64,000 nt of DNA. It comes from Bolinopsis microptera (lineage: Eukaryota > Ctenophora > Tentaculata > Lobata > Bolinopsidae). Location: the NCBI RefSeq assembly GCF_026151205.1, contig NC_087076.1:17967419-18031418 (forward strand), read 5' to 3'. Position 1 is the first letter of the stretch. Each line of letters opens with the position of its first letter. The notes under the pieces were generated by a model, which had not been told where the DNA came from, did not search any database, and worked only from the letters and a program-made list of their open reading frames with translations. The translations under genes were made by a program, and so were the position numbers. This document shows positions 1 to 48,328 of the stretch, one piece after another.

Positions 1-16757
<16,757 letters not shown>

Positions 16758-17587: not shown

Positions 17588-19615
17588 GTGGCAAAAGATA
17601 TGGGTCTCGTTCGCAAAATCAATTCCACATTAACTCGATGGCTGCAGCTAATCAAATTAGTCCTCGTGGTTTTGATGATCATTTTTATCTTTTACAATTT
17701 GAGGAGTGGGATAGTATACGATCCTGCATTCCTACAATATTCAACTAAAGAAAACAAGCTAATGGCTTCTTTTCCAGTAAAAACAAGGGCAAACTCTAAA
17801 AATATCAGTATTAATACCAATACTAGTGGTTACATTTTCCACAACCACCGATTAAGATTATGGTATGAAGGTAGATGTATAGACTCTAGTGACGGAGAAA
17901 AGTTGACAGTACAGTTCTGTGATCCTGATTTACAGCAGGTGAGACTTTTGATCAACATCATTGAACTGTTGAACTGTTAACCATATTGCTACCACATATT
18001 ACGTCAGCGACCAATGCAAAGCCAGGAGGAGGGGGTTTGGAAACACTGATAGTTGTTGACGGGGACGGGGTCTTATGCTTCAAATCAATTTGATTAACAA
18101 TAAAACTTCGCAAATTTCCTTGATATTACAATTTTAGTGAATTGAGTATCTTTTGACCCACTAATAAATCATTGACCCACTAATCCATCCACCTGGTCCT
18201 TCAACACTTATGAAACATTCTCCCCGTCGGAAAACTTTAAATATCATCTTGAAATTCGGTCAAGGGAGGAAGGGAGAGGGGGGGGGGGGGGGGGCCGGGG
18301 GCAAATGGTGACTGTTGAAGACGGAGGGGGGGGGGGGGGGGTTAAAAATGACCCAAAAATTTGCTGGCGTAATCCACTAATATATGAACGCTCCTCTAAT
18401 TTCTAATAAACATGCTCTCAGGCGTTCAGTCTAACGATGGATAATCGTCTGATATACGAGAGAACTGGAAGATGTGTAAACTACAAAAGCCATGATAATG
18501 CCATATTTCTGGAACTGGTAGATTGCTCTGATGTCACAGAATCGTTCCTAACAGAAGACAAAGATGGAATGTTTTACATACAGCGTATCGTGAAGAATGA
18601 AGAGCTGTGTATCACACCAATGTCAGAGAGGAACGATATGAACGTCACAACAAGTCCTTGTCTGGAGGATCCTGTTGGATTAACAGATTGTGATAAGCAT
18701 GCTTCCAGAATGCTACTGATGGAGGAGGGTTTTTTTCAAGAAGACAGGAAATTGTTAAAGATGGCTGTTGTACCTCCAAATAGTTCATGTGACTTTAAAG
18801 CGTGTGGGTTCAACAAAAGAGAGCCGGTGAAACTCCTGCCACCTGTCCAGGTGGGAAGATGTACAAAGCTGTGGGATTGTGTGACACTTGCAGTAAAAAC
18901 AACCAGAAGACCACATCTTATATTGCGTCTAGCTGAATCGGTGAGAGAAAGTCTGGGATTCGATCTCCCGATAGTTGCATACGACGACGGACCAAACGAT
19001 TACCCTGATAAAATATATCAGCAAATTGCAGAGTATCCCTTATTAAAGTACGTAGTGAGTAAAAATGAAGATCTCGGTATAGCTCGAGGAAGGAATCTGG
19101 CTGTTATGCAGGTTAAGACTAAATACTTCTTCCTTCTTGATGATGATAATTTGTTTACTAAAGACACAAACCTCGATAAACTTGTCGAAGTTCTGGACAC
19201 CACTGATGCAACTGTGGCTTCGGCTGCTCTGGGGTATGTAAACTTTACTGGATACTTTGAATTTGGCCATTTCAACGAAAACAAGGCAAACCGTAGACTG
19301 GGAATTTACCATAAAGCTTGCACACTTGTCAATCAAAAAATTCCAAACCATCCAAGCTGTGTCAGATGTGACATTACTTCAAACCTATTCCTCGCACGAA
19401 CCACTGAGATATTGGATATAGGAGGATGGGACCCAGAGCTAATGATAGTGGAACACAAGGACATATTTATTAGACTGAAGGCAGCTGGCATGAAAGTTGC
19501 ACTTTGCCCGAGTGTTAGACTAAAACACGGTCATCCGTTTAATATAGCAGTTAAAGGCGAGGGTTACGACAAAAAAAGGAAACGAGGAGGACAAAGGTTT
19601 GATAAGCATGATTAA
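17588..19615 (+). CDS. GT12 (B4GALNT-like) glycosyltransferase with ricin-type lectin segment, copy A
   Basis: Exon 1 17600-17938 (ATG at 17600; a GTG 12 nt earlier abuts the acceptor tttttag), intron 483 bp, exon 2 18422-19615; about 510 residues. A short cytosolic end precedes a type II signal anchor (about residues 14-34, LIKLVLVVLMIIFIF). A ricin-B-like segment spans the splice (LRLWYEGRCIDSSDGE; then LIYERTGRCVNYKSHD). The catalytic domain (about 265-500) has TLAVKTTRRPHLILRL, GIARGRNLAVMQVKTKYFF, the metal motif LDDDN at about 352-356, and FLARTTEILDIGGWDPEL, laid out as in GT12 beta-1,4-N-acetylgalactosaminyltransferases. Expected to act in the Golgi on glycans; donor and acceptor are not inferable. 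Copy A is the most divergent, with a long G-rich intron. Confidence 0.85.
18270..18345. repeat. Two long G runs in the copy A intron
   Basis: Runs of about 20 and 18 G flank a short segment. Absent from the 174-178-bp introns of the other copies. Confidence 0.9.
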
Positions 19616-23518: not shown

Positions 23519-25220
23519 ATGGCAAAAGATATGGGTCTCGTTCGCAAAATCAAATCAACATTAACTCGATGGCTGCAGCTAATCAAATTAGTCCTCGTGG
23601 TTTTGATGATCATTTTTATCTTTTACAATTTGAGGAGTGGGATTTTATACGATCTTGCATTCCTAGGAAATTCGACTAAAGAAAACAAGCTAATGGTTTC
23701 TTTTCCAGTTAAAACAAGGGCAAACTCCAAAAATATCATTATTAATACCAATATTAGTGGTTACATATTCCACAACCATCGATTAAGATTATGGTATGAA
23801 GGTAGATGTATAGACTCTAGTGACGGAGAAAAGTTGACAGTACAGTTTTGTGATCCTAATTTACAGCAGGTGAGACTTAGTGTTAACTTATGTTTCTTCC
23901 ACTAAATGCAGAAGATAATACTAACTGACTGTTTTTGGGACCTAATCAAAAACATTGAAAGTTGAACTACTAACCATATTGCCACCATAACTAAAATAAA
24001 AATGAATGAAGGTCAATTTTTGTCATCATCAATAAATATACTCTCAGGCGTTCAGTCTAATGGATAATCGTCTGATATACGAGAGAACTGGGAGATGTGT
24101 AAACTACAAAAGCCATGATAATGCCAAATTTCTGGAACTTATAGATTGCTCTGATGTCACAGAATCGTTCTTTACAGAAAACACAGATGGAATGTTTTAC
24201 ATACAGCGTATCGTGAAGAATGAAGAGCTGTGCATCACACCAATGTCAGAGAAGAAAGATTTGAAAGTTACAACAAGTCCTTGTCTGGGGGATCCTGTTG
24301 GATTAACACGTTGCAATAAGCATGCTTCCAGAATGCTACTGATGGAGGAAGATTTCTTTCAAGAAGACAGGAAGTTGTTAAAGATGGCTGTTGTACCTCC
24401 AAATAGTTCATGTGACTTTAAAGCGTGTGGGTTCAACAAAAGAGAGCCGGTGAAACTCCTGCCACCTGACCAGGTGATAAGATGTACAAATCTGTGGGAA
24501 TGTGTGACACTTGCAGTGAAAACAACCAGAAGACCACATCTTATATTGCGTCTAGCTCGATCAGTGAGAGACAGTCTGGGGTTCGATCTCCCGATAGTTG
24601 CATACGACGACGGACCAAACGATTACTCTGATGAAATATATCAGCAAATTGCAGAGTATCCCTTATTACAGTACGTAGTGAGTAAAAATGAAGATCTCGG
24701 TATAGCTCGAGGAAGAAATCTGGCTGTTATGCAGGTCAAGACTAAATACTTCTTCCTTCTTGATGATGACATCAAGTTCAATGAATACACAAAACTCGAT
24801 AAACTTGTTGAAATCCTTGACACTACTGATGTTACTGTGGCCTCAGCTGCTTACTTGGTATCCGGCTTTACTTCATACTTTGAATTTGGACATTTCAACG
24901 TGAACAAGGCAGTCCGTAGACTGGGAGCTTACCATGGAGCTTGCACACTTGTCAACCAAACAATTCCAAACCATCCAAGTTGTGTCAGATGCGATATTAC
25001 TCAAAACGTATTTCTGGCACGAACCAAAGAGATATTGGATATAGGAGGATGGGACCCAGAGCTAATGATAGTGGAACACAAGGATATATTTATTAGACTG
25101 AAGGCAGCTGGCATGAAAGTTGCACTATGCCCGGATGTGAAAGTAAAGCACGCTCGTCCAACAAATGGCGAGGACTACTTAGAAAAAAGGAGACGAGGAG
25201 GAGAAAGGTTTGATAAGTAA
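23519..25220 (+). CDS. GT12-like glycosyltransferase with ricin-type segment, copy B
   Basis: Exon 1 23519-23869, intron 178 bp, exon 2 24048-25220; about 507 residues. Here the codon right after the acceptor is ATG instead of the GTG of the other copies, so a second in-frame start 4 codons upstream exists. Exon 2 lacks one codon (AFSLM, not AFSLTM). Signal anchor, lectin segment, GIARGRNLAVMQVKTKYFF and LLDDDIKF are intact. A TAA right after RFDK ends the protein about 8 residues earlier than D and E. Two LINE fragments lie upstream, shared with copy C. Confidence 0.85.
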
Positions 25221-25840
25221 GATTTTAAAAATATGATTCAAAAGATTAAATATAAAAGAAGTCCCCACGTAAATGTGACCAACAATGACTTGTGACTTAA
25301 AATTTAAATTACAGAAAGACTTCATGACACTACCACTAAATAAAGATGAAATGCTCAATTTCCCGATCCGTGGTGGCGTATTTTATCATATTCCATACAA
25401 AATGGGGACCCCAGTCTACTGTTTATGAGCATGCAGATATGGCGGAGTGACAGGCCGAGCGCCGCCAAGTTAATTCCACATTAAATTTGAAAATCGTGTA
25501 AATTTCTATGTAACCATATGTTTATTGTTTATGCAACCTGACACAGATGTGTGCAAAACAGTAATACTAAGTACTAACTCGAAATAATAATAATAATATA
25601 TCTTTGTGATTGTTTCTCCCGTTTTTCTTCCTATGCGTTGCAAGCCCTCTCACTTGTAAAAACAACCACTTTTGTAGATACACACAGTCTCTACGCTTTT
25701 ATTCTCTGGTCCCTAGGGTCAGCTGACTCCGGAAAATTACCGATTGCCAAGGTTTGATGCCTAGGCTCTAGGCAGTCGAGACCTCTTATTGAGACCAAAT
25801 ATAATAATATGCTATCAATTAGTGCCTAGTGGGATAGGTG
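25221..25840. repeat. Downstream flank of copy B with first part of the shared repeat
   Basis: From about 25350, ctcaatttcccgatccgtgg and later agtgcctagtgggataggtg match the repeat in units C-E and, inverted, in the foldback spacer. The repeat is split by a 6.4-kb insertion at gataggtg and resumes at 32233. Confidence 0.75.
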
Positions 25841-27416
25841 GGGGGGGGGAGTAATGACTACCAATGGAGACTTTTGGGGACTAATGGGGACTAAAAATCA
25901 TGGGGACTAGAGGTCAACTCGTTGACGTAATTCACCATTTGTCCCCATAAGTCCCCAGAATTTTTGACAGTTATTCATGGTTTTCAAGTTAGTTTAATAA
26001 CAATACGATCGAGATGTTTTGTCCAAGATAAGAGTAGGATAAATCTGACTTAAAAGTAAAATGAAAAGCCCGGTTGTAATGTGTTCTACCACTGTACAAG
26101 TCAGTTCAAATTGAGGTTAATTGAAGTTTAGCTCTCGTGAAGGTAGAAGTAGGTAGAAGTAGCCGACTCGCTGAAAAATCATGAATTAACCCTTCGACTT
26201 ACCCTCCTAATACGCTTAAAGATGTTAGATGATGGGTGAATGAGTATTTATAACAGCCGTTCTGTGAACAGACTTGAATGATCTTTATTTTAAGCACTGA
26301 CAAGCACTCTTTTGTGAATATTTCCATCAATGATCGTCAAAAACAAAAGAAACCAACGCCAATTTCAAATTACTGAGCATATCATTTCAGACAAATCAAT
26401 ACAAAAGTAATAAGAAAAATTGATAGGGGGGGGGGCAACGCCCCAAAAGGCCCCAAAAAGCCCCGATTTCTAGGGCCCTTTATGGATTTCGATATGTGTA
26501 TTGTGTGGGGCCTTTTGGGGCCCTAGAATTAACTTCAATTTCATCAAGTTTGATATATGCTAAGTGCTTAAATGATATTATCTGACTACTTGCACAGTAC
26601 TTGTATGTTTATTTGAGTGTATTACATGGAGAATGTGGTCCATAAACACTATCAAATAGAGAAAAGCAATGATCTAACAGGGTTGTACCATATTGCATAT
26701 TAGGGGGGGGGGGGGGGGACTTAAGCTCTGATCTCTACCCGTGCTGTCAGTCTGAACTTCCAAGGAAGAGGAGGACTGAGGAGGAGGAGGAGGATGAGGA
26801 TGAGGATGAGGAGGAGGACTGACGTGCAGGAGGAAGACTGGGGACAGAGGAAGGGGACTGAGGAGGATAAGGAGAACTGAGGACTGAGGAGGATGAGGAG
26901 GAGGAAAAGGACTGGAGAGGAGGAGGAGGAGGAGAAAGACTGAGGAGGAGGAGGAGGACTGACGAGGAGGAAGACTTAGGAGTAGGAGAAGGGGGAGGAG
27001 AACTGAGGAGGAGGACTGAGGAGGAGACTGAGGAGGAGGAGGACTGATGAGGAGGAGGATGATGAGGAGAATGCTGACGAGTAGAAGAGGACTGGGGACT
27101 GAGGAGCAAGAGGACTGAGAAGGAGGACTGAGGACTGAGGAGGAGGAGGACTGAGGAAGACTGAGGAAGACTGAGGAAGAAGACTGAGGAGGACGAGAAC
27201 GAGGACTAGGAGGATGAGGACGAGAACTAAGGACGAGGACTAGGAGGATGAGGACGAGAACTAAGGACGAGGAGGAGGACGACTGAGGAGGAGGACTGAT
27301 GAAGAGGAGGACTGGGGGAGGAATAAGGAGGAGTGAAGAGGAGGAGGAGGAGAAGGAGACTGGGGGAGGAGAAGGAAGACTGGGGCTGGACTGATGAGAA
27401 GGAAGAGGAGGAGGAC

Positions 27417-30004
27417 GGGGGGGTACCAATGGCATAGAATGGAGAAGAATGGCATAAAAATCATCAAATGGCATAGAAATTTCATGGCATAAATGGAAAT
27501 TTTGTTTGGCCAATTCTCCATTTATGCCAATTTATGCCATTATTTAGGTCTTCATATTTGACCTTTAGGATGACTTTATATTCGCAAATATTATTAGTAC
27601 TTGAATAAGAGACATGTTTCATGCTTTATAACGCTTGGAATGATCGTTAAAGTCAAAGATTCATATGACAAATAACTAAATAAAGAAAATAGAAATGTAT
27701 TATATCAAATATATACCAAACATTTCACTATTCAAGAAAAGCAAATTGTGAGATGTTCAAAATGTACAGAATACAAACATTGACAACACAACGATTTTGA
27801 ATGTCATCAAGGAACAATGCATCTGATGTATTTGTCTTCGACGAGTAGCCAAACATTAGGAGATCCATTGATTAGGCTATGTTCCTGGCAGTAGTACTTC
27901 ATCAGGCATGACTTAAAAGAAATAAATCTAACCACTCCTGTTGCAAAGTCCTGCTGAGATTTGAAGACTTTAAGAGTTTCTGTACTGCCAGCTTTCAAAA
28001 CTGTTGAACATCCGCATTCAGGTTGATTGTATATGCGAACATCAGAAGACACTCCAAACGCGTCCCCCTTGAATCTTGAAAGACGAGATTTTGTTGATAA
28101 AGTGCTTCTTCCTCCATTGAGCGTGAGTGTCTCAAAAGACCGGAAGGATAGTGTTCCATATTTATCTGTTGATATCGTTTCTCCATCATCACAATCATCA
28201 ACTCCAGGTTCTACCTTATAAGCTAAGTCGTCCTCATCCTCGAGGCATCCAGCTTCATCATCTACAGCTTCCCAAGAAAGTTCTTGGCCATGGACGATTG
28301 GCTTCCCACTCCGTTCTTCAGGATCTGCGACTGCGGCGAACACAGGGAAATTGTATCTTTTCCCTTCTCGAATGCAGTCCCTCGATGCCCTGTCCAGCGT
28401 TTTTGCCAACTTGCCTAGGCTTATCATACCACCAGTCCATTTCACTCGTTCTGCTTTCTGGCCTGTAGATTTAACCTTTTTAGGTGAACTGTAGGATGCA
28501 AAACTGTACTTCCACGTGCATGTGCAATTGCAGATGTGTCTTCATGTAATGTAAAGCACTGTACACATTCTTTCTCTCCATTCCATGGGCCATAGTTATC
28601 ACATCCATATTTCTTGAGCGACCAGATGAAAAAGAAACCCGAATAAATGCAAACAGCTGCTCATTCTGATCACTTCCAAGGTAATAAGTGACGATTTCAG
28701 CATTAGGGAATTGCTTCTTCAGCAGAGTTAAATACAAAACAAGACCGTCACAAGTACATATAAGATCAAGGTACGTCTGATTCGTTATGCTGACAGCTGA
28801 GTAAGTATTCTCTTTCCAAGTAACGAAAAATGTTTTTCTCAAACAGTTCCATTTTTATTATACTTTATAGTTTAGAGTCTAATTTGGCATGATATCAGAT
28901 CATGTGATATTACATGGCCCCAGGGAGAGCATTGCCAGAGCAATTGGCCAGAGAGCTCCATAGAAGTAAGGGGCCTACTCTAGCCAACAGCTCTAATACA
29001 TTTCCTTCCTCAACTTCATTTTCTTCATCTAACTGCTGCTGCTACTCAGCAACTACTTGATAGCTGGCACAGCGACAATTGTTTGCGTAGTGTATCTGTT
29101 AGCCTCAATTTTGCCTCAAGGAGGGAAGGTAGCCTCAATCCAACCTCACATAAGTTTCGATAAAGTCTCAATAACCTTCGGGCTACAATTACAAGTTTTA
29201 TAGTGGGTCTATAACATGTTTCCGTACATTAAAGTTTAAACTTAAAATGCGGTCGAATCATTTATTAGCCTCATTTTGGCCTCCTACAAGGAGACTCTGC
29301 GATATCTGAAATGTTGAGCTTGAAGAGGATGAATAAATTTTTATTGTTGACACATTAGATAGTCACAATACCGAACATGCTCGAAAATATACACAAAAGT
29401 ATACTTGTTAGCCTCATTTCACCCTCTCAAAAGGTGGTTAGCCTCATTTTCACCTCGAATATTTAAAGCTTAGATCTCGATCAAGTATAATCATTATGGA
29501 TTATACTTGCAACTTGGATATCATGGACGTAACATGAGAAAGTTCTTTTTTGAAAGTGGTGAGGCTAATTTGTTAGCCTCAATTGTCCCTCGCAGTTAAA
29601 TCACTCCTACTGAGTCTAGTGAGTGAGCTAGGAGGTCGCCGAACATCTCATTTTAAAGCCGTATCGATTTTCTATACGCATACCAAAAATCAAATGCGTA
29701 ACTAAAACAGAAATGAAATTACAGAAGTTTTAAATTTTTTGTCAAAAAACGAACTTTTAGGGGTGTTTCTAATGACCAGGGTCAGTACAACAAATAGAGA
29801 TAAAGGTGGACAGTACTAGTGGGGTGCAGACTATTCGTTATTAAATTCTTAGTTCAAAGTTTTAAAATTTCATATTTCGAATGGCATAGAATGGAGAAGA
29901 ATGGCATAAAAATCATCAAATGGCATAGAAATTTCATGGCATAAATGGAAATTTTGTTTGGCCAATTCTTCATTATGCCATTTATGCCATTGGTACCCCC
30001 CCCC
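27417..30004. mobile_element. Inner G-run-ended transposon with 8-bp target duplication and ORFs
   Basis: Target duplication aggaggac at 27409-27416 and 30005-30012 within the GA tract. Inverted ends are G-run + taccaatggcata. Both subterminal zones of about 120 bp repeat tggcata/atgccat many times. Carries the minus-strand coding region at 27807-28842. Confidence 0.88.
27807..28842 (-). CDS. Unrecognised protein of the inner element (broken or spliced frame)
   Basis: Two adjacent minus-strand frames, 28842-28480 (120 codons) and 28445-27807 (212 codons), join by a frame change near 28480-28500, either a frameshift or a missed intron. The first contains YYLGSDQNEQLFAFIR and GRSRNMDVITMAHGMER; the second contains KWTGGMISLGKLAKTL and an acidic stretch with three DDE/EDE clusters, then CGC and CLMKYYC. 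The residue pattern GS-x2-NE-x-LFAxIR-x5-GR is what one may find near the C-terminus of a cut-and-paste transposase, but I do not recognise the family. No N-terminal DNA-binding domain was found. Confidence 0.45.
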
Positions 30005-30354
30005 AGGAGGACTGAGGAGGAGGAGAAGGAGGACTTAGGAGTAGGAGGAGAAGGGGGACTGGGGACTGAGGAGGAGGATGAGGATGAGGAGGAGGATGAG
30101 GACTGACAAGTAAGAAAAGGACTGGGGACTGAGGAGGAGGAGGAGGGCTGACGTGCAGGAGGAGGAGGAGGAGGACTGAGGAAGAGGACTGAGGAGGATG
30201 AGGAGGACTGAGGACTGATTAGGATGAGGAGGAGGAGGAGGAAGACTGAGGAGGAGGAGGAGGACTGACGAGGAGGAAGACTTAGGAGTAGGAGAAGGAG
30301 AACTGAGGATGAGGACTGACGAGTAGGAGAAGGACTGGGGACTGAGGAGGAGGA

Positions 30355-30700
30355 TTATTGGCAAGGTTGGGATAGACTTGATGTCGTGAGGCACAGCGTT
30401 ATACAAAGCAGAGGCCACTAAAGGGAAAGAATAAAACCTCATGGTGTTGGTGCTTTTGTATTTTGATCCGCCAAGAGTACGAAGACATGTAACTCCTCTT
30501 CTTTGAGAGTGTTGGAAAGTAATGTTTACACTGTTGGGAATCTCACCGTAGTAAATTTTCCAGACAAGGATGATCGTGTACCTCTCGCGGCGGCGCTGTA
30601 GGAAGTAGAGATCAAGCTGCTTCAGGCGCTCCCAGTAGCTAAGATACTTGTATCCTGCTATTTTTGCAGTGAATGAGCGTTGGATCGACTCAATCATGAT
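30355..30700 (-). pseudogene. LINE (CR1-like) C-terminal fragment
   Basis: The minus strand reads SIQRSFTAKIAGYKYLSYW, RLKQLDLYFLQRRRERYTII and VWKIYYGE, closely paralleling the C-terminal end of the LINE protein at 38834-41707. The frame runs on into GA repeat. Confidence 0.8.
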
Positions 30701-31443
30701 TATGTCACACTGGAGGAGGAGGAGGAGGAGGAAGAGAAGGAGGAGGAGGAGGAGGAAGAGGAGGAGGAGGAGGAGCAGGAGGAAGAGGAGGAGGAGGAGC
30801 AGGAGGAGGAGGAGGAGGAGGAGGAGGAGGAGGAGGAGGAGGAGGAGGAGAAGGAGTACTGGGAGTAAGACTGAGGGGGAGGAGGGGGAATGAGGACTAA
30901 GGTGGAGGGTGAGGAGGACTGAGGAGAAGGACTGATAGGGAGAAGGAAGAGGAGAAGGAGGAGGAGAAGGAAGAGGAGGAATGAGGAGGAGTAGGAGGAG
31001 GAGGAGGAGGAGAAGGAGGAGGACTCAGGAGGAGGACCCAGGAGGAGGACGAGGACGAGGTCTAAGGACGAGGTCGACTATGAGGAGGACTGTGGAGGAG
31101 GACTGATAGGGAGAAGAAAGAGGAGGAGAAGGATGAGGAGAAGGAAGAGGAAGAACGAGGAGGAGGAGGAGGAGGAGGAGGAGGAGAAGGAGGAGGAGGA
31201 CTCAGGAGGTGGACTCAGGAGGTGGAGGAGGATGAGGAAGAGGAGTCAGGAGGAGGACTGAAGAGGAGGAGGACTGAGAAGGATCGGAGGAGGAGGAGGA
31301 GGACTCAGGACGAGGAGGAAGACTAAGGAGGAGGAGGACTTATATCCCTTTTGAGAGGTTTTTGAGATCGATTCTGTAAATTTCTCAATTTTCCGATTTT
31401 TCCGATTTTGGCCTCATCAACACTCATGTGGAAATCGGGTTGG

Positions 31444-31444
<1 letters not shown>

Positions 31445-31483
<39 letters not shown>

Positions 31484-31620
31484 TTGTACATGATAAGCAA
31501 ACTTTGCTGGAGTATAGTTTTGCGAAACAAACTTGACCCGACCCTTGACAATCTTGATATTTGCACTCTCTCAGCTTCGCTTTTTTGATCGAATGCTGAT
31601 GCTGAAATCCCCCCCCCCCC
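31445..31620. repeat. Long C runs
   Basis: A run of about 36 C at 31445-31480 and a run of about 13 C ending at 31620. These may be further remnants of G-run-ended elements or assembly-prone homopolymers. Confidence 0.8.
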
Positions 31621-32232
31621 CGGTGAATGTATTTCTCTGTCAGATAGTCGAGTATGAAAAGAATTACATCCCTCTCACATCTTTCAAATTCGTGTATATT
31701 TGTTTTAAATTGAACAAAATTCATGCCAAAAATACAGGGTCAAAAGGCCCCAAAAGGCCCCAAAAAGCCCCGATTTCTAGGGCCCTCTTCGGATTTTTTA
31801 TATGTGTAGGGCTTTTTGGGGCGTTGCCCCCCCCCCCCCCCCCTGGCCCCTTGATAATGCGTTTATTTTCCTTGCGCTACAACTCGTGTTACTAGATCAA
31901 TCTGATAAAATAAGCGTATATATGCAATATGTCTCCTCAATGTTGTCATTGGTAGTCGCCCCCGCCCCCTCCCTTAATTTACCTGAGGTACTCTAACAGC
32001 CCTCAAGTAGCTCCCAAGAAGTCAGGAATGTCCAGTGACCATTGATAAATATTCTAGACTTCAGTCTTGAGAAGTTTACGATCTGGTCTGGAGAAGCCAG
32101 ATTTTTTTGAAATCTAAATGGGGACTAATGGAGACTTTTGGGGACTAATGGGGACTAAAAATCATGGGGACTCGGGGTAAAATCGTTGACGTAATTCCCC
32201 AAGTCCCCAAAAGTAGTCATTACTCCCCCCCC

Positions 32233-32510
32233 GATAGGTGCTATGTACATGTGGTGAAATTAACAATTTACTTTGTTAATTCAGCGACATAATCAACAAT
32301 TATTTAATTCAGAATATCGCGCAAGATAACTTTGTATAGTCTAGTTAAGAACGTAGGTGACATATTGGCGTGGGGACGTACGTATGTATGTATGTACACT
32401 CGACCGTTACAAGCTACCATATACCAAAAAAACCTCGTTCGCTAACCCTTGTCCTTGACTCTTTTGGGTCTTCGGCACTTGAGTCATGGATCGGGAAAAA
32501 ATCTGATATA
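32233..32510. repeat. Second part of the shared repeat (unit B)
   Basis: Continues the repeat broken at 25840: ggtgaaattaacaatttac, aatatcgcgcaagataac, a TACG/TATG microsatellite near 32378 and aaaaaacctcgttcgctaac. Confidence 0.8.
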
Positions 32511-35526: not shown

Positions 35527-37179
35527 GTGGCAAAAGATATGGGTCTCGTTCGCAAAATCAAATCAACATTAACTCGATGGCTGCAGCTAATCAAATTAGT
35601 CCTCGTGGTTTTGATGATCATTTTTATCTTTTACAATTTGAAGAGTGGGATAGTATACGATCTTGCATTCCTAGGAAATTCGACTAAAGAAAACAAGCTA
35701 ATGGTTTCTTTTCCAGTTAAAACAAGGGCAAACTCCAAAAATATCATTATTCATACCAATATTAGTGGTTACATATTCCACAACCATCGATTAAGATTAT
35801 GGTATGAAGGTAGATGTATAGACTCTAGTGACGGAGAAAAGTTGACAGTACAGTTTTGTGATCCTAATTTACAGCAGGTGAGACTTAGTGTCAACTTATG
35901 TTTCTTCCACTAAATGCAGAAGATAATACTAATTGAGTATTTTTAGGACCTAATCAAAAACATTGAAAGTTGAACTACTAATTATATTGCCACCATAACT
36001 AAAATAAAAATGAATGAAGGTCAATTTTTGTCATCATCAATAAATATACTCTCAGGCGTTCAGTCTAACGATGGATAATCGTCTGATATACGAGAGAACT
36101 GGAAGATGTGTCAACTACAAAAGCCATGATAATGCCAAATTTCTGGAACTTATAGATTGCTCTGATGTCACAGAATCGTCCTTTAAAGAGGATCCTGTTG
36201 GATTAACACGTTGTGATAAGCATGCTTCCAGAATGCTACTGATGGAGGAAGATTTTTTTCAAGAAGACAGGAAGTTGTTAAAGATGGCTGTTGTACCTCC
36301 AAATAGTTCATGTGACTTTAAAGCGTGTGGGTTCAACAAAAGAGAGCCGGTGAAACTCCTGCCACCTGACCAGGTGAGAAGATGTACAAAGCTGTGGGAA
36401 TGTGTGACACTTGCAGTGAAAACAACCAGAATTTCCACAGAAGACCACATCTTATATTGCGTCTAGCTCGATCAGTGAGAGACAGTCTGGGGTTCGATCT
36501 CCCAATAGTTGCATACGACGACGGACCAAACGATTACCCTGATAAAATATATCAGCAAATTGCAGAGTATCCCTTATTACAGTACGTAGTGAGTAAAAAT
36601 GAAGATCTTGGTATAGCTCGAGGAAGAAATCTGGCTGTTATGCAGGTCAAGACTAAATACTTCTTCCTTCTTGATGATGACATCAAGTTCACTGAATACA
36701 CAAAACTCGATAAACTTGTTGAAATCCTTGACACTACTGATGTTACTGTGGCCTCAGCTGCTTACTTGGTATCTGGCTTTACTTCATACTTTGAATTTGG
36801 ACATTTCGACGTGAACAAGGCAGTCCGTAGACTGGGAGCTTACCATGGAGCTTGCACAATTGTCAACCAAACAATTCCAAACCATCCAAGTTGTGTCAGA
36901 TGCGATATTACTCAAAACGTATTTCTGGCACGAACCAAAGATATATTGGATATAGGAGGATGGGACCCAGAGCTAATGATAGTGGAACACAAGGATATAT
37001 TTATTAGACTGAAGGCAGCTGGCATGAAAGTTGCACTTTGCCCGGATGTGAAAGTAAAGCACGCTCGTCCAACAAATGGCGAGGACTACTTAGAAAAAAG
37101 GAGACGAGGAGTAGGAAGGTTTGATAAGTATGATTTTAAAAATATGATTCAAAAGATTAAATATAAAAGAAGTCCCTAA
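35527..37179 (+). pseudogene. Glycosyltransferase copy C, disabled
   Basis: Exon 1 35539-35877 is intact with the usual acceptor, anchor and lectin start; exon 2 begins at 36056. Two lesions relative to copy B: an in-frame loss of 111 bp (37 residues of the lectin/stem region, between ESS and EDPVGL near 36180) and a 10-bp insertion (atttccacag) at about 36430. The insertion shifts the frame and stops it at 36466. The downstream catalytic part, including GIARGRNLAV and LLDDDIKF, stays open to 37179. It might still make a truncated lectin-only protein; a working enzyme is unlikely unless the 10 bp is removed by use of the new AG as an acceptor. Confidence 0.85.
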
Positions 37180-37219: not shown

Positions 37220-38035
37220 AGAAAGACTTCATGAAACTACCACTAAATAAAGATGAAATGCGGCCGCTTTTCTTTTGTGGATGGCCGCTCAATTTCCCGA
37301 TCCGTGATATCATATTCCATACAACCTGGGGACCCCAGTCTACTGTTTATGAGCATGCAAAATGCGGATATGGCGGAGTGACAAGCCGAGTGCCACCTAG
37401 TTAATTCCATATTAAATTTGAAAATCGTGTAAATTTCTATATAACCATATGTTTATTGTTTATGCAACCTGACACGGATGTGTGCAAAACAGTGATACTA
37501 AGTTCTAACTCGAAATAACAATAATAATATATCTTTGTGATTGTTTCTTCCGTTTTTCTTCCCTTGCGTTGCAAGCCCTCTCTCTTGTAAAAATAACCAC
37601 TTTTGTAGATACACACAGTCTCTACCCCTTTATCCTCTGGTCCCTAAGGTCAGCCGACTCCGGGCCAGAGGAAAATTACCGATTGCCAAGGTTTGATGGC
37701 TAGGCAGTCGAGACCTCTCATTGAGACCAAATATAATAATATGCTATCAATTAGTGCCTAGTGGGATAGGTGCTATGTACATGTGGTGAAATTAACAATT
37801 TACTTTGTTAATTCAGCGACATAATCAACAATTATTTAATTCAGAATATCGCGCAAAATAACTTTGTATAGTCTAGTTAAGAACGTGGGTGACATATTGG
37901 CGTGGGCACGTACGTATGTATGTATGTACGCACGACCGTTACAAGCTACCATATACGAAAAAAACCTCGTTCGCTAACCCTTGTCCTTGGATCGAAAAAA
38001 AAAGATATATTTAGTGAAGAAATTCCTAAATGGTA
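37220..38035. repeat. Shared repeat downstream of copy C (longest copy)
   Basis: Contains gcggccgcttttcttttgtg, the tgacaagccgagtgcc motif, agtgcctagtgggataggtg uninterrupted, and the TACG/TATG microsatellite near 37910. Copy F has no such insert (tttaaattgtaacaggtaag), so this is an insertion of about 0.8 kb. Confidence 0.75.
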
Positions 38036-38779
38036 AGATGACAGCCTTACATGTGTACTTGATAATAAAATTAGCGTTGAAACAGAGGTATTAACTGTAC
38101 TAATTTCAGGTTTAGAGCTCTAATAAACAGCAGATGGAACATTCAGAACATATTCGAGAGACCGGCAAGAAATCACTTGGTGATAAACCACGATACAGGA
38201 GAGATAACATACATTGAGGAGAAGGAACGTGGATCATGTTAATGGTTTTATATTTTTAATGGTCAAATAAGAGCTGTTCTATGTTTGGGATACCTAAAGG
38301 GTCAATTTTCAATTTTGGGTCTATTTAATTATTTCCCTTTTCAATCATCGTGTTCTTTCTCATAGTTATATGAATATCATTGTATTGTATTTAAGGACAC
38401 GTTCATTTGAGTTTGAGGATATTCGTAAACAAAAATAATAGCGTTTTCGACGATAGTGGCTTAATTTTGACATCTATTAACCTAGCACTTTCAGAAGTTC
38501 TGAACATTAGCCACGTAACCCATACTCCCATATGCACCGCTCAGAAAGAAAATCTATTGTTGTTAGGCACTATAATGTTTCAAATGTCACATTTTGTGTG
38601 ACTTAGTTAATTGCAGTTGTCTAATCATTATTCCTTGGTCTGAAATATAGTAAATTAGGTCAATCTTACAATTATGATACAACATTGGTCAATGGGCACG
38701 GATCGAACGGTTACAAGGCAATATATGGGTAACTTTGTCACACTAATGATACCATACCTCTATTCTACTATGAGGTGTC

Positions 38780-41750
38780 CTAAAAACCCTTTCAACTTTT
38801 GTAGCGCTCACTGAGACTTGGCTCAAACCCTATATGGCTGATGCCCAACTACATGTTCCAGGGTATACAGTCTCCCGATGTGACCGAAGTGGGCGGGTCG
38901 GAGGCGGAGTTTTGCTCTATTCCCACATCAACATACCTGTAAGTGAGTGTGATACGTTTGATGATGGTACCTGCGAGGGTTTATTTTGCAGATTCAGCAC
39001 GATTAATACATGTGTTGTAGTGGCTTATCGACCCCCAAATGCCCCCCTCAGCAGTTTCAACTCACTTTTGGAGTTTATCTCCACGTGTATTCACCGTGTT
39101 AATGATGAAAGCTACGATATTATGCTCACAGGTGACTACAACTTACCCTCAATAGACTGGCAGACTGTATCCGTGTCGTCAGGAGGTTCCAGTGAGACTC
39201 AGCTATCAGCTCACTCCCTTCTCAACTTCATGGCCAAGCATCTGCTGAGTCAATACGTCCTTTGTCCAACCAGGGGTAACAATGTTCTAGACTTGTTCAT
39301 CACGAATAACAGCAGACTTGTTACTAATGTTCAGGCACAAGCTACCTCACTGTCTGACCATCATCTGGTGGATGTTATGCTCGCTACCAATCCGCTATCC
39401 CGAACGGAGGCTACCATCCCTAAGTTTGACGAAAGTAGCTTCAGGTCTCTTGACTTTTTTAAGGCGGATTTTGATGCACTAAAGGAGGAGTTACAGGAAG
39501 TTAACTGGTCTCAGCTTCGTGACTCATGCTCCTTTGAGGAGTTTCCTGCTCTTTTTACGGAGACCCTGTTCCAGATTTGCTGTTCGTGTGTTCCTCAGAA
39601 ATCGGTGCCCTCTGGACGTCCTAAGCACAGCAACGCGTTGAGACGGAAATGCAACCGGCAAAAAGCACGACTCCAAGCATTAATTGACAAGAATGCTTCA
39701 GAAGACCAGATCAAGGCAGTCAGGAATAAAGTTGCACTCTTACAGTACGACATCATGACTGCACATACCAAGAAACTGGATGAGAAGGAGAACAGAGCCA
39801 TCGAGAAGATTAAAAGTAATCCGAAGTTCTTCTATAGTTATGCCCGATCCCTCTCAACTATCAAATCCAGTATTAACATGCTATTTGATGCAAACCAGGA
39901 GATCACTACTGACACAAAGCAGATGGCGGACTTACTTCAGGAGCAGTTCAGCTCAGTGTTCAGTGATCCAAGCTCTCCTGATATCAAGGACCCAGATTTC
40001 CCGTTACCTATGATCGAACATCCGCAAACTCTTGAAGATTTTTGCATCATGGATGACGATATCATATCTGCAATTGGGAATATTCCTCCTAACTCTGCTA
40101 GCGGACCTGATGGAATACCTGCTATCCTCTTAAAGAGCTGTGCAAAAGAGATGTGCGAGCCGATACGGCTCATCTGGAGCGAATCCTTTGAGCGTGGTGA
40201 AGTACCTAAGTTCTACAAAGATACCTACATCACTCCTCTATACAAAAAGGGTGATCGGGCGAGAGCTGTCAACTACCGGCCGGTGGCGCTCACATCTCAC
40301 GTTATAAAAGTGTACGAACGCATACTGCGTGGCAAGATGGTTAGCTTCATAGAGAAGAACGGATTACTCTGTAATAATCAACATGGCTTTCGATCTGGGC
40401 GGAGCTGTCTCACCCAACTGCTCAGTCACGTTGATGACATTGTTCAAGGATTGGTGAAAAACGCTGATACTGACGCCATATACCTTGACTTTGCGAAAGC
40501 ATTTGATAAAGTGGATCACCGACTGCTTATTAAGAAACTTAGAAGAATGGGAATTCACGAAAAGGTGGTGTCGTGGATTGAATCCTTCTTAAGTGACCGC
40601 ACACAGTGTGTTGTGTTGGACGGGATGTCATCACTTGCTGCAGCAATCATAAGCGGAGTGCCACAGGGTACAGTTTTGGGCCCGCTGCTTTTCATTTTGT
40701 TCATTAATGACATGAAGCTGTGCATCACAGGATGTGTCATTAGATTCTTTGCTGACGATACACGGATTTTGAGGCACATCTATACACTTGATGATGCAAG
40801 TATACTGCAAAATGATCTCAACTCTGTCATTGACTGGGCAAGATGCAATAACATGTCATTGCATGAGGATAAATTTGAGATACTTGTGCACAAACACTGT
40901 CCCCGAAACAGCTTGCAAGACCTCCCGTTTGCCATCCTGACGCAAACTTATCAAGTTTCGCATGGTAACATAATGTACCCTACGGATGCAGTCAAAGACC
41001 TGGGGGTTTTGATCTCGGCGGACTTGTCTTGGAGCTCACATGTTACTATGATAGCAGATCGTGCCCGTAAAGTTGCCTCTTGGGTTCTGAGCGCTTTTAG
41101 ATCGAGAAACAAGATCACTATGCTGACCCTCTACAAGTCATTAGTCAGAAGCCATCTCGAGTACTGTTGTCCCCTCTGGAATTCAACTAAGCAAGCTGAT
41201 ATCGCTGAGCTAGAGGGAGTACAACGTACATTTACGTCCAAAATACATGGTGTGCAACATCTGAACTATTGGCAGAGACTGAAGGCCTTAAAATTGATGT
41301 CACTTCAACGGAGGAGAGAACGTTACACTATCATTCATATGTGGAAGATCCTACACAAGAAGTGTCCTAATGATGTCAACGTTCAGTTTACAGATACACT
41401 CCGTTATGGCCAGAAAGCAGTAGTCCCTAGCTTGTCAACGTCCAGTAGCCAAAGGAATCAATCGATCTTTGACAGCTCATTTGTAGTGATGGGGCCTCGA
41501 TTGTGGAACATCATTCCCGCAAACCTGCACCTTATCGAGGACCCCCTACGTTTCAAGTCATTGTTGACGGAGTTTGTTACATCTATTCCGGACGAACCTC
41601 CTGTTACTGGATATTGTTGCCAGAACGGGAATTCGTTATTGAACTGGAGCGCAGAAAAGACAGCAACTTCGCTGCACGGGTGGTCAGCCGTTCTGATGAC
41701 CCGATAGAGGATCTATGAAGCAACCCCAAGTAACCCAAGTAAGTAACTCA
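38780..41750 (+). mobile_element. 5'-truncated CR1-like LINE inside the TTAA element
   Basis: Coding sequence is open before the first ATG: VALTETWLKPY precedes it, the usual start of a LINE endonuclease motif. ORF1 and the endonuclease N-terminus are therefore lost. It ends shortly after the stop in ccaagtaacccaagtaagtaa, a short repeat such as LINE 3' ends have. Confidence 0.7.
38834..41707 (+). CDS. LINE endonuclease/reverse transcriptase (CR1/Jockey group), uninterrupted frame
   Basis: 957 residues from the first ATG. Apurinic-type endonuclease part: VVAYRPPNAPL, LTGDYNLPSIDWQ, SDHHLVDVML. Reverse-transcriptase part: YKKGDRARAVNYRPVALTS, QHGFRSGRSCLTQLL, YLDFAKAFDKVDHRLL, SGVPQGTVLGPLLFILFIND and the catalytic FADDTRI. 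C-terminal part: LVRSHLEYCCPLWNS, LNYWQRLKALKLMSLQRRRE. Functions in target-primed reverse transcription of its own RNA. The intact frame suggests recent insertion, although the 5' truncation probably leaves it unable to move by itself. Confidence 0.93.
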   Translation: MADAQLHVPGYTVSRCDRSGRVGGGVLLYSHINIPVSECDTFDDGTCEGLFCRFSTINTCVVVAYRPPNAPLSSFNSLLEFISTCIHRVNDESYDIMLTGDYNLPSIDWQTVSVSSGGSSETQLSAHSLLNFMAKHLLSQYVLCPTRGNNVLDLFITNNSRLVTNVQAQATSLSDHHLVDVMLATNPLSRTEATIPKFDESSFRSLDFFKADFDALKEELQEVNWSQLRDSCSFEEFPALFTETLFQICCSCVPQKSVPSGRPKHSNALRRKCNRQKARLQALIDKNASEDQIKAVRNKVALLQYDIMTAHTKKLDEKENRAIEKIKSNPKFFYSYARSLSTIKSSINMLFDANQEITTDTKQMADLLQEQFSSVFSDPSSPDIKDPDFPLPMIEHPQTLEDFCIMDDDIISAIGNIPPNSASGPDGIPAILLKSCAKEMCEPIRLIWSESFERGEVPKFYKDTYITPLYKKGDRARAVNYRPVALTSHVIKVYERILRGKMVSFIEKNGLLCNNQHGFRSGRSCLTQLLSHVDDIVQGLVKNADTDAIYLDFAKAFDKVDHRLLIKKLRRMGIHEKVVSWIESFLSDRTQCVVLDGMSSLAAAIISGVPQGTVLGPLLFILFINDMKLCITGCVIRFFADDTRILRHIYTLDDASILQNDLNSVIDWARCNNMSLHEDKFEILVHKHCPRNSLQDLPFAILTQTYQVSHGNIMYPTDAVKDLGVLISADLSWSSHVTMIADRARKVASWVLSAFRSRNKITMLTLYKSLVRSHLEYCCPLWNSTKQADIAELEGVQRTFTSKIHGVQHLNYWQRLKALKLMSLQRRRERYTIIHMWKILHKKCPNDVNVQFTDTLRYGQKAVVPSLSTSSSQRNQSIFDSSFVVMGPRLWNIIPANLHLIEDPLRFKSLLTEFVTSIPDEPPVTGYCCQNGNSLLNWSAEKTATSLHGWSAVLMTR

Positions 41751-44317: not shown

Positions 44318-45559
44318 CCCATATCCAAAAAAATTTTAATTTCCTACATTCTCATTTTTTTCGTTTTCTGTGGCCCGCTCGCTTCGCTCGCATAAAAAGT
44401 CTTTGCATTCGCGCGGTTCAAAGATTTTTCATGGCGGATTCCAGATTCTCAATCTTACTTTTTTAGGGCCCGGAACAGGGACGTAGCCAGGATTTTTCTT
44501 TGAGGGGGGCTGTTGGCGAGCGAAGCGAGCCGACGCGTCTAATCCAGCTGCGCAGCAAGCGAAGCGAGCAAGCTGTGGCAGGGGTCTGGGGGCGCAGCCC
44601 CCAGCAGGGTCCAGGGGCGGAGCCCCTTGGCGGGGGCTAGGGGGGCGCAGCTCCCCGGAAAATTTTTGCGAAACAGGGTGTTTTAGACGACATTTGGCAT
44701 TAAAGAAATTTGTAGGACAGCAATAAACTGGGATTGAAAAGAATCAAGTACTCACGTAAATTTGGTAACTTCACAACAGCAATCTGCATTCTCCAATCAG
44801 AATTTACGACTTACTCAGGCCTCATTGTCTTAAGATTTTTACATTTCCTACGGTTTAGGGGACACTATTGACTATTTATAGAAGTCTTCTAGAATGTTTG
44901 CTTGGATTTAATGACAGATATTTACTAATCCACAGTTCAAATCTTTGACTGACTGCAGTCATAAACACAGCCCAGTTACCAGGCGACCATGGGGACTAGG
45001 GGGCTTATCTTTTTTCTGGGGTTCGATTTTTTCCGGGGGGGCTGCCGCCCCCTAGCCCCCCCCCCCCCCCCCCCCTGTCTACGTGCCTGGCCCGGAATGC
45101 TTTTTAATAGATAATCCTAGGTTACTTTTGGGGGCGAAGCCCCCGAAAATTTTGGAAATTTAAACTAGATTTGGCCTCCTGGAACGAATCTGACAATGGA
45201 GAACGATTTTAGCATACTATTTTCTAATAATGACAACTATTTATGTCGTGTACGCGAAAATGCCCCAATAATTAGCATCTGGTTAGTGGTTACTTGATGC
45301 ACAGATTTTGTAGCTAATAGCAACAAACTTTGGTCTGTGAAACGAAATTTGATAGACTGGATCAGTGGATCCCTGACTGAGGACATTTAAATAACGGTCC
45401 AGCAACTTTTAGTCTGCTCTTTCACTTAAATTCCTACTGAAATATTATCGAATATTCTCAGAGTTGGCTCTCGAATTTCCTACTTTTTGTCAAAAATTTC
45501 CTACTTTTAAAAATTTCCTACATTCTTAGAATGCGAGAATGCGGGTTTTTGGATATGGG
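44318..45559. mobile_element. CCCATATCC-ended element with 8-bp target duplication
   Basis: Inverted ends CCCATATCCAAAAA; target duplication aacaaaag at 44310-44317 and 45560-45567; units B, C and E have the empty site. Subterminal repeats of tttcctac. No coding capacity. Split by a hAT-like element. Confidence 0.88.
44476..45089. mobile_element. hAT-like non-autonomous element nested in the CCCATATCC element
   Basis: Ends CAGGGACGTAGCCAGG and, inverted, CAGGCACGTAGACAGG (14 of 16). Target duplication gcccggaa at 44468-44475 and 45090-45097. GC-rich interior with gcgagcgaagcgagc and ggggcgcagcccccagc type hairpins. 614 bp, non-coding. Confidence 0.88.
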
Positions 45560-46590: not shown

Positions 46591-48328
46591 GTGGCAAAAG
46601 ATATGAGTCTCGTTCGCAAAATAAAGTCAACATTAACTCGATGGCTGCATCTAATCAAATTAGTCCTCGTGGTTTTGATGATCATTTTTATCTTTTACAA
46701 TTTGAGGAGTGGGATAATATACGATCTTGCATTCCTAGGAAATTCGACAAAAGAAAACAAGCTAATGGTTTCTTTTCCAGTTAAAACAAGGGCAAACTCC
46801 AAAAATATCAGTATTCATACCAATATTAGTGGTTACATATTCCACAACCATCGATTAAGATTATGGTATGAAGGTAGATGTATAGACTCTAGTGACGGAG
46901 AAAAGTTGACAGTACAGTTTTGTGATCCTAATTTACAGCAGGTGAGACTTAGTGTCAACTTATGTTTCTTCCACAAAATGCAGAAGATAATACTAATTGA
47001 CTATTTTTGGGACCTAATCAAAAACATTGAAAGTTGAACTACTAACCATATTGCCACCATAACTAAAATAAAAATGAATGAAGGTCAATTTTTGTCATCG
47101 TTAATAAATATACTCTCAGGCGTTTAGTCTAACGATGGATAATCGTCTGATATACGAGAGAACTGGAAGATGTGTAAACTACAAAAGCCATGATAATGCC
47201 AAATTTCTGGAACTTATAGATTGCTCTGATGTCACAGAATCGTTCTTTACAGAAGACAAAGATGAAATGCTTTACATACAGCGTATCGTGAAGAATGAAG
47301 AGCTGTGCATCACACCAATGTCAGAGAGGAACGATTTGAACGTTACAACAAGTCCTTGTCTGGAGGATCCTGTTGGATTAACACGTTGTAATAAGCATGC
47401 TTCCAGAATGCTACTGATGGAGGAAGATGTTTTTCAAGAAGACAGAAAATTGTTAAAGATGGCTGTTGTACCTCTAAATAGTTCATGTGACTTTAAAGCG
47501 TGTGGGTTCAACAAAAGAGAGCCGGTGAAACTCCTGCCACCTGACCAGGTGGGAAGATGTACAAATCTGTGGGAATGTGTGACACTTGCAGTAAAAACAA
47601 CCAGAAGACCACATCTTATATTGCGTCTAGCTCGATCAGTGAGAGACAGTCTGGGGTTCGATCTCCCGATAGTTGCATACGACGACGGACCAAACGATTA
47701 CCCTGATGAAATATATCAGCAAATTGCAGAGTATCCCTTATTACAGTACGTAGTGAGTAAAAATGAAGATCTCGGTATAGCTCGAGGGAGAAATTTGGCT
47801 GTTATGCAGGTCAAGACTAAATACTTCTTCCTTCTTGATGATGACATCAAGTTCAACGAATACACAAAACTCGATAAACTTGTTGAAATCCTGGACACTA
47901 CCGACGTCACTGTGGCCTCAGCTGCTTACAATGTAATCGGTTTTACTTCATACCTTGAAATCGGACATTTCAACGAGAACAAGGCAAAGCGTAGACTGGG
48001 AGTTTATCATGAAGCTTGCACAATTGTCAACCAAACAATTCCAAACCATCCAAGTTGTGTCAGATGCAATCTTACTCAAAACGTATTTCTGGCACGAACC
48101 AAAGAGATATTGGATATAGGAGGATGGGACCCAGAGCTAATGATAGTGGAACACAAGGATATATTTATTAGACTGAAAGCAGCTGGCATGAAAGTTGCAC
48201 TTTGCCCGGATGTGAAAGTAAAGCACGCTCGTCCGTCAAAGATAGCAGTTAAAGGCGAGGACTACTCAGAAAAAAGGAGACGAGCAACAGGAAGGTTTGA
48301 TAAGTATGATTTTAAAAATATGATTTAA
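46591..48328 (+). CDS. GT12-like glycosyltransferase with ricin-type segment, copy D
   Basis: Exon 1 46603-46941, intron 178 bp, exon 2 47120-48328; about 515 residues. Anchor WLHLIKLVLVVLMIIFIF, lectin segment, GIARGRNLAVMQVKTKYFF, LLDDDIKF and DIGGWDPELMIVEHKD are all kept. Differs from E by few residues, for example RCNLTQNVF where most copies have RCDIT. The C-terminal tail (KIAVKGEDYSEKRRRATG) is variable between copies. Confidence 0.87.

Follow-up and report, generated by a model that had tools for sequence, protein, structure and literature searches.

What are three DNA elements that lie one inside another, each opening with a run of G and closing with a run of C, and do they belong together? 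This question is raised by a 64,000-nucleotide stretch of the Bolinopsis microptera genome (contig NC_087076.1, positions 17,967,419 to 18,031,418 of the forward strand), the whole of which is called the window below and whose own coordinates are used here. Our best explanation, to which we give a probability of roughly 0.7, is that the outer, middle and inner elements are cut-and-paste DNA transposons of one lineage, characterized by a G-run tip, cassettes in direct orientation at the two ends and, in those families for which coding sequence was found, a related transposase that is probably of the DDE (aspartate-aspartate-glutamate) type. The lineage is apparently uncatalogued, a statement that refers to Pfam-A, the PDB sequences and the literature searched.

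Three nested elements and their target-site duplications

Direct reading of the sequence bore out the threefold nesting described in a first-pass annotation of this DNA: the outer element encloses the middle element, which in turn encloses the inner one (Table 1). On the left side of the outer element the final G of GATAGGTG fuses with a G run that extends to 25849 and is followed by AGTAATGAC; on the right side, GTCATTACT is followed by eight C (32225-32232) and by the second GATAGGTG. The inner element lies between two copies of AGGAGGAC and begins with seven G and TACCAATGG, and its right side reads CCATTGGTA and nine C (29996-30004). Both 8-bp target-site duplications (TSDs) are exact, as had been claimed. 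The claim that a sister copy keeps the empty outer site also held: when joined together, the outer flanks align at 88% to 37372-38129, a tandem sister in which GATAGGTG is single. The empty site exists because the outer element sits just downstream of one member of a tandem array of related open frames. Since AGGAGGAC, the inner TSD, is made of GGA-rich repeat sequence, the TSD of the window copy alone is weak evidence; the other 22 inner copies considered below carry the case.

The middle element follows TTGATA, with ten G (26426-26435) and then CAACGCCCC on its left side, and ends with GGGGCGTTG, seventeen C (31827-31843) and TGGCCCC before TTGATA recurs. This 6-bp TSD, absent from the first-pass annotation, was revealed by an outer copy without the middle element (L069), which is continuous over the insertion site and whose alignments to the two sides overlap by exactly the six bases of TTGATA. 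An 8-bp TSD for the middle element was considered and rejected, as the window copy and the majority of the copies that could be resolved have 6 bp.

Some further features of the nest were observed. Seven extra bases, TGGCCCC (31844-31850), separate the C run of the middle element from its TSD, and a similar extra GCCCCC is found at two outer copies on C11. More long G/C runs lie within the middle element (26703-26718, 31445-31480 and 31609-31621) and may mark further nested or deleted elements. GGA/CCT-rich repeat arrays occupy 26745-27410 and 30010-31340 and are also present in L069, L076 and L083; they thus recur inside the outer and middle elements and family B, and near the transposase of L083.

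Boundaries and target-site duplications across the genome

Copies of the three elements, and of two related families designated B and C (described below), were compared at both ends. They are not a random sample, since only the best 40 candidates of each search were scored; the paired ends come from 23 copies of the inner element, ten of the outer, 22 of family B and six each of family C and the middle element. The middle sample consists of the window copy and five loci, and the 30 middle loci, several of them overlapping, mostly gave the left end only. TSDs were counted in two ways. In a permissive count a single G and as many as four C from the runs could be scored as TSD, which can lengthen TSDs, and a strict count, taken from the flanks of the permissive one, included no run base. 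A narrower set of patterns had failed to catch one of 20 inner right ends, 12 of 20 family B copies and four of ten outer pairs, which were rescored with wider patterns.

By the strict count, TSDs of exactly 8 bp were present in 17 of the 23 inner copies (the others had 7 bp in one copy, 6 in two, 5 in one, 4 in one and none in one) and in 6 of the 10 outer copies, with one at 7 bp (the window copy, in which the eighth base is the G), one at 6 and two without a TSD. Family C had 8 bp in four of its six copies and 7 bp in two. The strict TSDs of family B were 6 bp in 14 of 22 copies, 7 bp in four and 5 bp in two, with none in two; those of the middle element were 6 bp in three of six, 5 bp in one and 8 bp in one, which lies within a TAG repeat, with none in the last. 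The permissive count raised the inner and C copies to at least 8 bp in 22/23 and 6/6, respectively, and gave 8 bp in 7/10 outer copies; family B then had seven TSDs at 6 bp, eight at 7, five at 8 and two missing, and the middle element four at 6 bp, one at 10 and one missing. In a control with re-paired flanks, 8 bp was reached in 0.09% of trials for the inner family and in none for the other families. Rather than having unrelated boundaries inside the G runs, the genome copies share a boundary at the edge of the G run, and the 8-bp duplications of the first-pass annotation are reproduced at other loci.

The 30 inner left ends that were fetched have 29 distinct flanks beyond the G run, which is 6 to 39 bases long (7 in 15 of the 30); the one shared flank belongs to L014 and L015, which are one duplicated locus. 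The two outer copies without a TSD, at C11 4.86 and 4.92 Mb, are alike in their right flank and in an additional GCCCCC, and look like a single insertion that was duplicated with its surroundings. If the additional bases are skipped, the 8-mer ATGCATTC can be read at either side of the 4.92 Mb copy. The target sites of family B and the middle element have T at the first place in 15 of 18 and A at the last of six places in 14 of 18, according to a hand-compiled list in which one site is out of register and TTGATA was entered twice.

Direct cassettes carry a word particular to each family

The first-pass annotation had assigned each element its own short subterminal word. When the counts in each 130-bp end were compared with the expectation from 1000 letter shuffles of that end, this assignment was supported for all three elements, the word of the middle element being the weakest. 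The outer word GGGGACT occurs three and four times at the two ends (expected, about 0.01) and the inner word TGGCATA four times at each (expected, 0.01). The middle words GGCCCC (one and two) and GGGGCC (two and none) are to be compared with an expectation of 0.015-0.03.

In the four families measured (outer, middle, inner and B), both ends of an element carry the cassette in direct orientation, a trait beyond what the first-pass annotation described. With the runs removed, left and right cassettes of 80-115 bp align directly, with 82/92 identical positions in family B and the values given in Table 1 for the window elements. The direct scores were 100-209 against shuffle maxima of 22-30, and the inverted scores 32-78 against shuffle maxima of 23-30. 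A plain terminal-inverted-repeat anatomy was therefore rejected, as the direct orientation aligns far better, although inverted alignments also exceed the shuffles. The extreme tip is inverted in the outer, middle and inner elements and in family B. The weaker inverted similarity past the tip arises because each cassette is partly palindromic: the word is read forward in the first part of the cassette and reversed in the second in the outer and inner elements, in family B and at the left end of the middle element, and no reversed word was seen at the middle right end. In four elements of family C, a second hit on the same strand places the other cassette about 2 kb off.

Beside different end cassettes, a 247-bp part of the body is 88% identical between the middle element and family B. 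This looks like an exchange of end cassettes, in one direction or the other, between B and the middle element, and the word appears to behave as a swappable module.

Related transposase pieces accompany the G-run ends of several families

The inner element of the window contains two overlapping reverse-strand open frames (Table 1). A genome search with their joined translation gave 127 matches, the best 16 of which span all 261 residues without a stop, and the inner copy L071 has one frame of 344 amino acids. More distant relatives reached from the inner protein include L072 (747 amino acids), L073 (521 amino acids), L076, L079, L080, L084 and L085, among others. Identity to the inner protein is 48-52% over three stretches in L085, 40% in L073, 27% in L084, and in L076 35-39% in a longer stretch and 62% in a short one. 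Several families (L071, L073 and L076) retain the C-terminal half alone, which in the inner family is present in many near-identical, stop-free copies.

Several of these genes are joined to G-run ends that carry other words. Family B (L076, L077), with both ends seen (GGGG..CCAAGTGG) and the word TGTAGA, contains a C-terminal gene part with an internal stop. Family C (L073, 598-2697), also with both ends seen (GGGGGTAATGCAACG), has the word TCATTAATGG and a 521-amino-acid open frame, and its six copies have runs of G5-6 and C4-6. One end each was seen for families D and E, which are linked to their genes by proximity: in D (L085), G17 CAATGGCATAAAATGGCAT lies about 1.6 kb before the gene part, and in E (L084), a run of 14 C is accompanied by AAAAAACCC words and is repeated in the copy L149. 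A second end of family D was not found; a run of 13 C just before the L085 gene was considered as the closing end and was not supported, there being no D cassette beside the run. From single end searches came 608 candidates in family C, 484 in D and 155 in E, with 40 scored in each case. Inner and D, whose transposases are nearest to each other, are also the families with the most similar words, TGGCATA and ATGGCATAAA; the B, C and E transposases are more distant from inner, and their words differ. The question whether autonomous relatives encode a common transposase is thereby answered in part. Related pieces are present in inner, B and C, for which both termini were seen, and in D and E, for which a single terminus was seen. 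None of the elements seen was autonomous, and such outer and middle copies as were examined yielded no transposase.

The conserved motifs are [IV]DxT (in 3/3 rows that reach it), GDGD (DDGD in L072), DxxHxxKKxRN (DxxH and KK in 6/6), D[KR]Q[DN]P and SDxxEQLFA (SDxxEQ in 6/6 that reach it). Judging from the order of these motifs, the protein may be a DDE nuclease, within the wide group that carries DxxH. General traits of DDE cut-and-paste elements are present, namely TSDs, inverted tips, empty sites (of the outer and middle elements) and dispersal in many copies. Four proteins gave nothing in Pfam-A at E≤1; at E≤10, eight proteins gave three weak matches, each in a single protein and none to a transposase, the best being DUF4902 (E 0.032). 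One protein and two profiles had no match at E≤10 among PDB sequences. In viral contigs two stretches matched the protein pattern of L072, with no relative confirmed, and none matched that of L073. A transposase tree placed inner, D, B and L072 together and C and E apart; good support is confined to three of its nine inner branches and there are long branches that meet, and it was not used as support.

Relation to known transposon superfamilies

It is possible, if somewhat doubtful, that the families belong to a known superfamily (hAT, P or KDZ/Zisupton) and have transposases too diverged for profiles to detect, with the G runs as a local peculiarity of this genome. The tips of hAT and P elements differ from G-run tips, and KDZ/Zisupton elements have long subterminal repeats. 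Likeness to hAT is seen in the 8-bp TSDs of the inner, outer and C families, in the clustered short subterminal words and, by eye, in Cys and His residues arranged much as in a zinc finger toward the N-terminal end of L072, L079 and L080; unlike hAT, the present families have G-run tips, a direct cassette and, in B and the middle element, mostly 6-bp TSDs, and no hAT match was found in the Pfam-A scans of four and eight proteins. P elements share the 8-bp TSD and resemble these proteins in the order of the DxxH and late E-like motifs, but their tips differ and no P transposase match was obtained in Pfam-A or PDB sequences.

Subterminal repeats also occur in hAT elements (PMC4763223), and the DxxH motif is present after the second catalytic D in Dada, as given in PMC3706591. 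The same paper relates Dada to hAT, P, Kolobok and MuDR, and describes 6-7 bp TSDs in small RNA genes and U6 and U1 families without terminal inverted repeats. Dada thus resembles the present families in its DxxH motif and in TSDs of 6-7 bp as in family B and the middle element (18/22 and 3/6, respectively, by the strict count, the inner, outer and C TSDs being mostly 8 bp); it differs in that the families described here have varied TSDs and flanks, which were not searched for RNA genes, and inverted tips. For Zisupton an 8-bp TSD is given in PMC12730594, which agrees with the inner, outer and C families and not with B or the middle element; no PF18758 match was detected in the Pfam-A scans of four and eight proteins. 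Fungal IS3EU elements have, in the same source, a 6-bp TSD, the length that prevails in B and the middle element, and TAYGG..CCRTA ends, unlike the G-run tips. A further point against a place in any one known superfamily is that B, with 6-bp TSDs, and inner, with 8-bp TSDs, have related transposases. No known family considered fits all of the features. A literature search, with Repbase and most subscription journals outside its scope, found no transposons defined by G-run termini, and nothing on these families was found in the literature on known superfamilies and ctenophore transposons.

We tentatively propose that the lineage may constitute a new eukaryotic DDE superfamily, having a G-homopolymer cleavage end, swappable, quasi-palindromic direct cassettes that could found new families (as in the exchange between B and the middle element), and TSDs of 6 or 8 bp made by related transposases. 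The sorting of transposons into superfamilies relies on the sequence of the ends, the length of the TSD and the transposase; in the present families, ends and transposase occur together while the word and the TSD length change. The pair formed by B and the middle element is an apparent natural end swap, through which a change in end recognition by a transposase becomes testable with natural variants. The superfamily would also add, in Bolinopsis microptera, a transposase family without a Pfam-A model match.

One lineage or several

Of the proposal in the first-pass annotation that elements with shared termini and different words form one transposon group, the part that stands is that families with other words carry related transposase pieces; a common TSD length did not hold. 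Several observations weigh against assigning all three elements to one lineage of DDE transposons. TSD length is unequal between families, being 8 bp in inner, outer and C and mostly 6 bp in B and the middle element, and no TSD was found, even by the permissive count, in 1/23 inner, 2/10 outer, 2/22 B and 1/6 middle copies. G-run length ranges from 4 to 39 across the families, so that a fixed length cannot be a requirement. A full-length transposase gene was seen in none of the bounded elements: those of inner and B contain C-terminal parts, and the frame of family C opens shortly ahead of its QDxxH motif, with only about 230 bp remaining to its G-run end. In the outer and middle copies examined no transposase was found. 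The longest relatives, L072, L079 and L080, which reach the N-terminal motifs, had no paired G-run ends in the stretches fetched. Finally, the catalytic residues were assigned by conservation in few, partly broken sequences.

Concerning the long relatives, L072 together with its 4-kb upstream neighbor, L078, has one run of six G, and L079 has none; L080 has two G/C runs between gene pieces without TSD pairing, and the runs of L083 are likewise unpaired. A 133-bp segment of L080 (1479-1611) that reads from G16 to C7, with inverted ends and, by eye, no TSD, lies between transposase gene pieces and may be a further small G-run element.

These observations might be taken to mean that the outer and middle elements are unrelated to the inner one, and that G-run ends arose repeatedly, with an unrelated transposase in each family. 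We regard this as unlikely. In its favor, no transposase is known for the outer or middle element, the sequence just inside the G run differs between families, and the relatives L072 and L079 lack a G-run end pair in the fetched stretches; against it, the middle element shares body sequence with B, a holder of the common transposase part, the unusual layout of direct cassettes is common to the four families measured, and inner, B and C (D and E by one end) join the transposase to G-run ends. That the G runs are non-templated or slippage products of insertion junctions, and not element sequence, is quite improbable. In its favor, the two ends of a single copy can have runs of unequal length, as can copies that are almost identical. 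Against it, at least four to five G are kept by each family in the copies seen (G5-6 and C4-6 in the six C copies), and duplicates of single insertions differ in run length (G7 in L014 and G6 in L015; G25 and G34 in the two C11 copies), which points to slippage after insertion.

Proposed transposition and history of the nest

If the three elements are transposons of one lineage, the transposase would bind the family word within the cassette at each end, the ends would pair, and the cut would fall at the junction of the G run and the flank. The target would then be joined with a stagger of 8 bp (inner, outer and C) or 6 bp (B and middle). The outer and middle elements of the window have no recognizable transposase and the inner element has a broken C-terminal part only; the outer and middle elements would use the same kind of transposase supplied from elsewhere.

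The bases just before the middle element in the window also precede it, with a single difference, in another outer copy (L041, at C11 4.97 Mb), and at C10 1.08 Mb the middle element lies at a matching distance from the outer end. The outer TSDs of these copies differ, being GATAGGTG in the window, GATGCT at C11 4.97 Mb and GAAGCTAC at C10 1.08 Mb. The same middle position combined with different outer TSDs indicates one or more events, probably several, in which the outer element was moved or copied together with the middle element inside it. In the window copy, the inner element inserted into the GGA-rich repeat.

A further case of nesting among these families is seen in the outer copy L069, which seemingly encloses a small family B-like element (2652-3025). 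The inner copy L070 is broken by an open frame that, by eye, is like that of a non-long-terminal-repeat (non-LTR) retrotransposon.

Features of the nest and its surroundings

Table 1. Elements, cassettes, open frames and duplicated target sites of the nest, in window coordinates.
Feature	Position	Strand	Basis
Outer TSD, left, GATAGGTG (last G joins G run)	25833-25840		single copy at empty site
Outer element, G run to C run, holds middle and inner	25841-32232	+	direct reading and genome copies
Outer left subterminal cassette, GGGGACT words	25860-25952	+	83/93 identical to right cassette, direct orientation
Middle TSD, left, TTGATA	26420-26425		continuous in outer copy L069
Middle element, G10 ... 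C17 and TGGCCCC, holds inner	26426-31850	+	sequence and genome copies
Middle left subterminal cassette, GGCCCC words	26437-26521	+	71/85 identical, direct orientation
Middle body homologous to right body of family B	26528-26763	-	87.9% over 247 bp
Inner TSD, left, AGGAGGAC	27409-27416		flank comparison
Inner element, G7 TACC ... GGTA C9	27417-30004	+	sequence and genome copies
Inner left subterminal cassette, TGGCATA words	27428-27541	+	111/114 identical, direct orientation
Inner transposase remnant, C-terminal open frame, 244 amino acids	27807-28541	-	genome search; no Pfam match
Inner transposase remnant, upstream open frame, 124 amino acids, SDQNEQLFA motif	28480-28854	-	open frame and relatives
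Inner right subterminal cassette, orientation as left	29880-29991	+	cassette alignment
Inner TSD, right, AGGAGGAC	30005-30012		flank comparison
Middle right subterminal cassette, orientation as left	31744-31822	+	cassette alignment
Middle TSD, right, TTGATA	31851-31856		L069 and flank comparison
Outer right subterminal cassette, orientation as left	32124-32214	+	cassette alignment
Outer TSD, right, GATAGGTG	32233-32240		direct reading
Empty outer target, single GATAGGTG, in tandem sister of flanks	37765-37772		flank alignment

Outside the three elements, long G/C runs at 18278-18341 and 45035-45075 matched none of the seven end patterns searched. Related open frames are arranged in tandem at 18437-19615, 24060-25220, 36382-37179, 47135-48328, 52518-53711 and 58318-59553, and the frame at 58318 matches glycosyltransferase family 2 (PF00535). 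A long open frame at 38834-41707, with endonuclease and reverse transcriptase domains, is a non-LTR retrotransposon, and an open frame at 2322-5471 has low-density lipoprotein (LDL)-receptor class A and rhodopsin-type seven-transmembrane domains.

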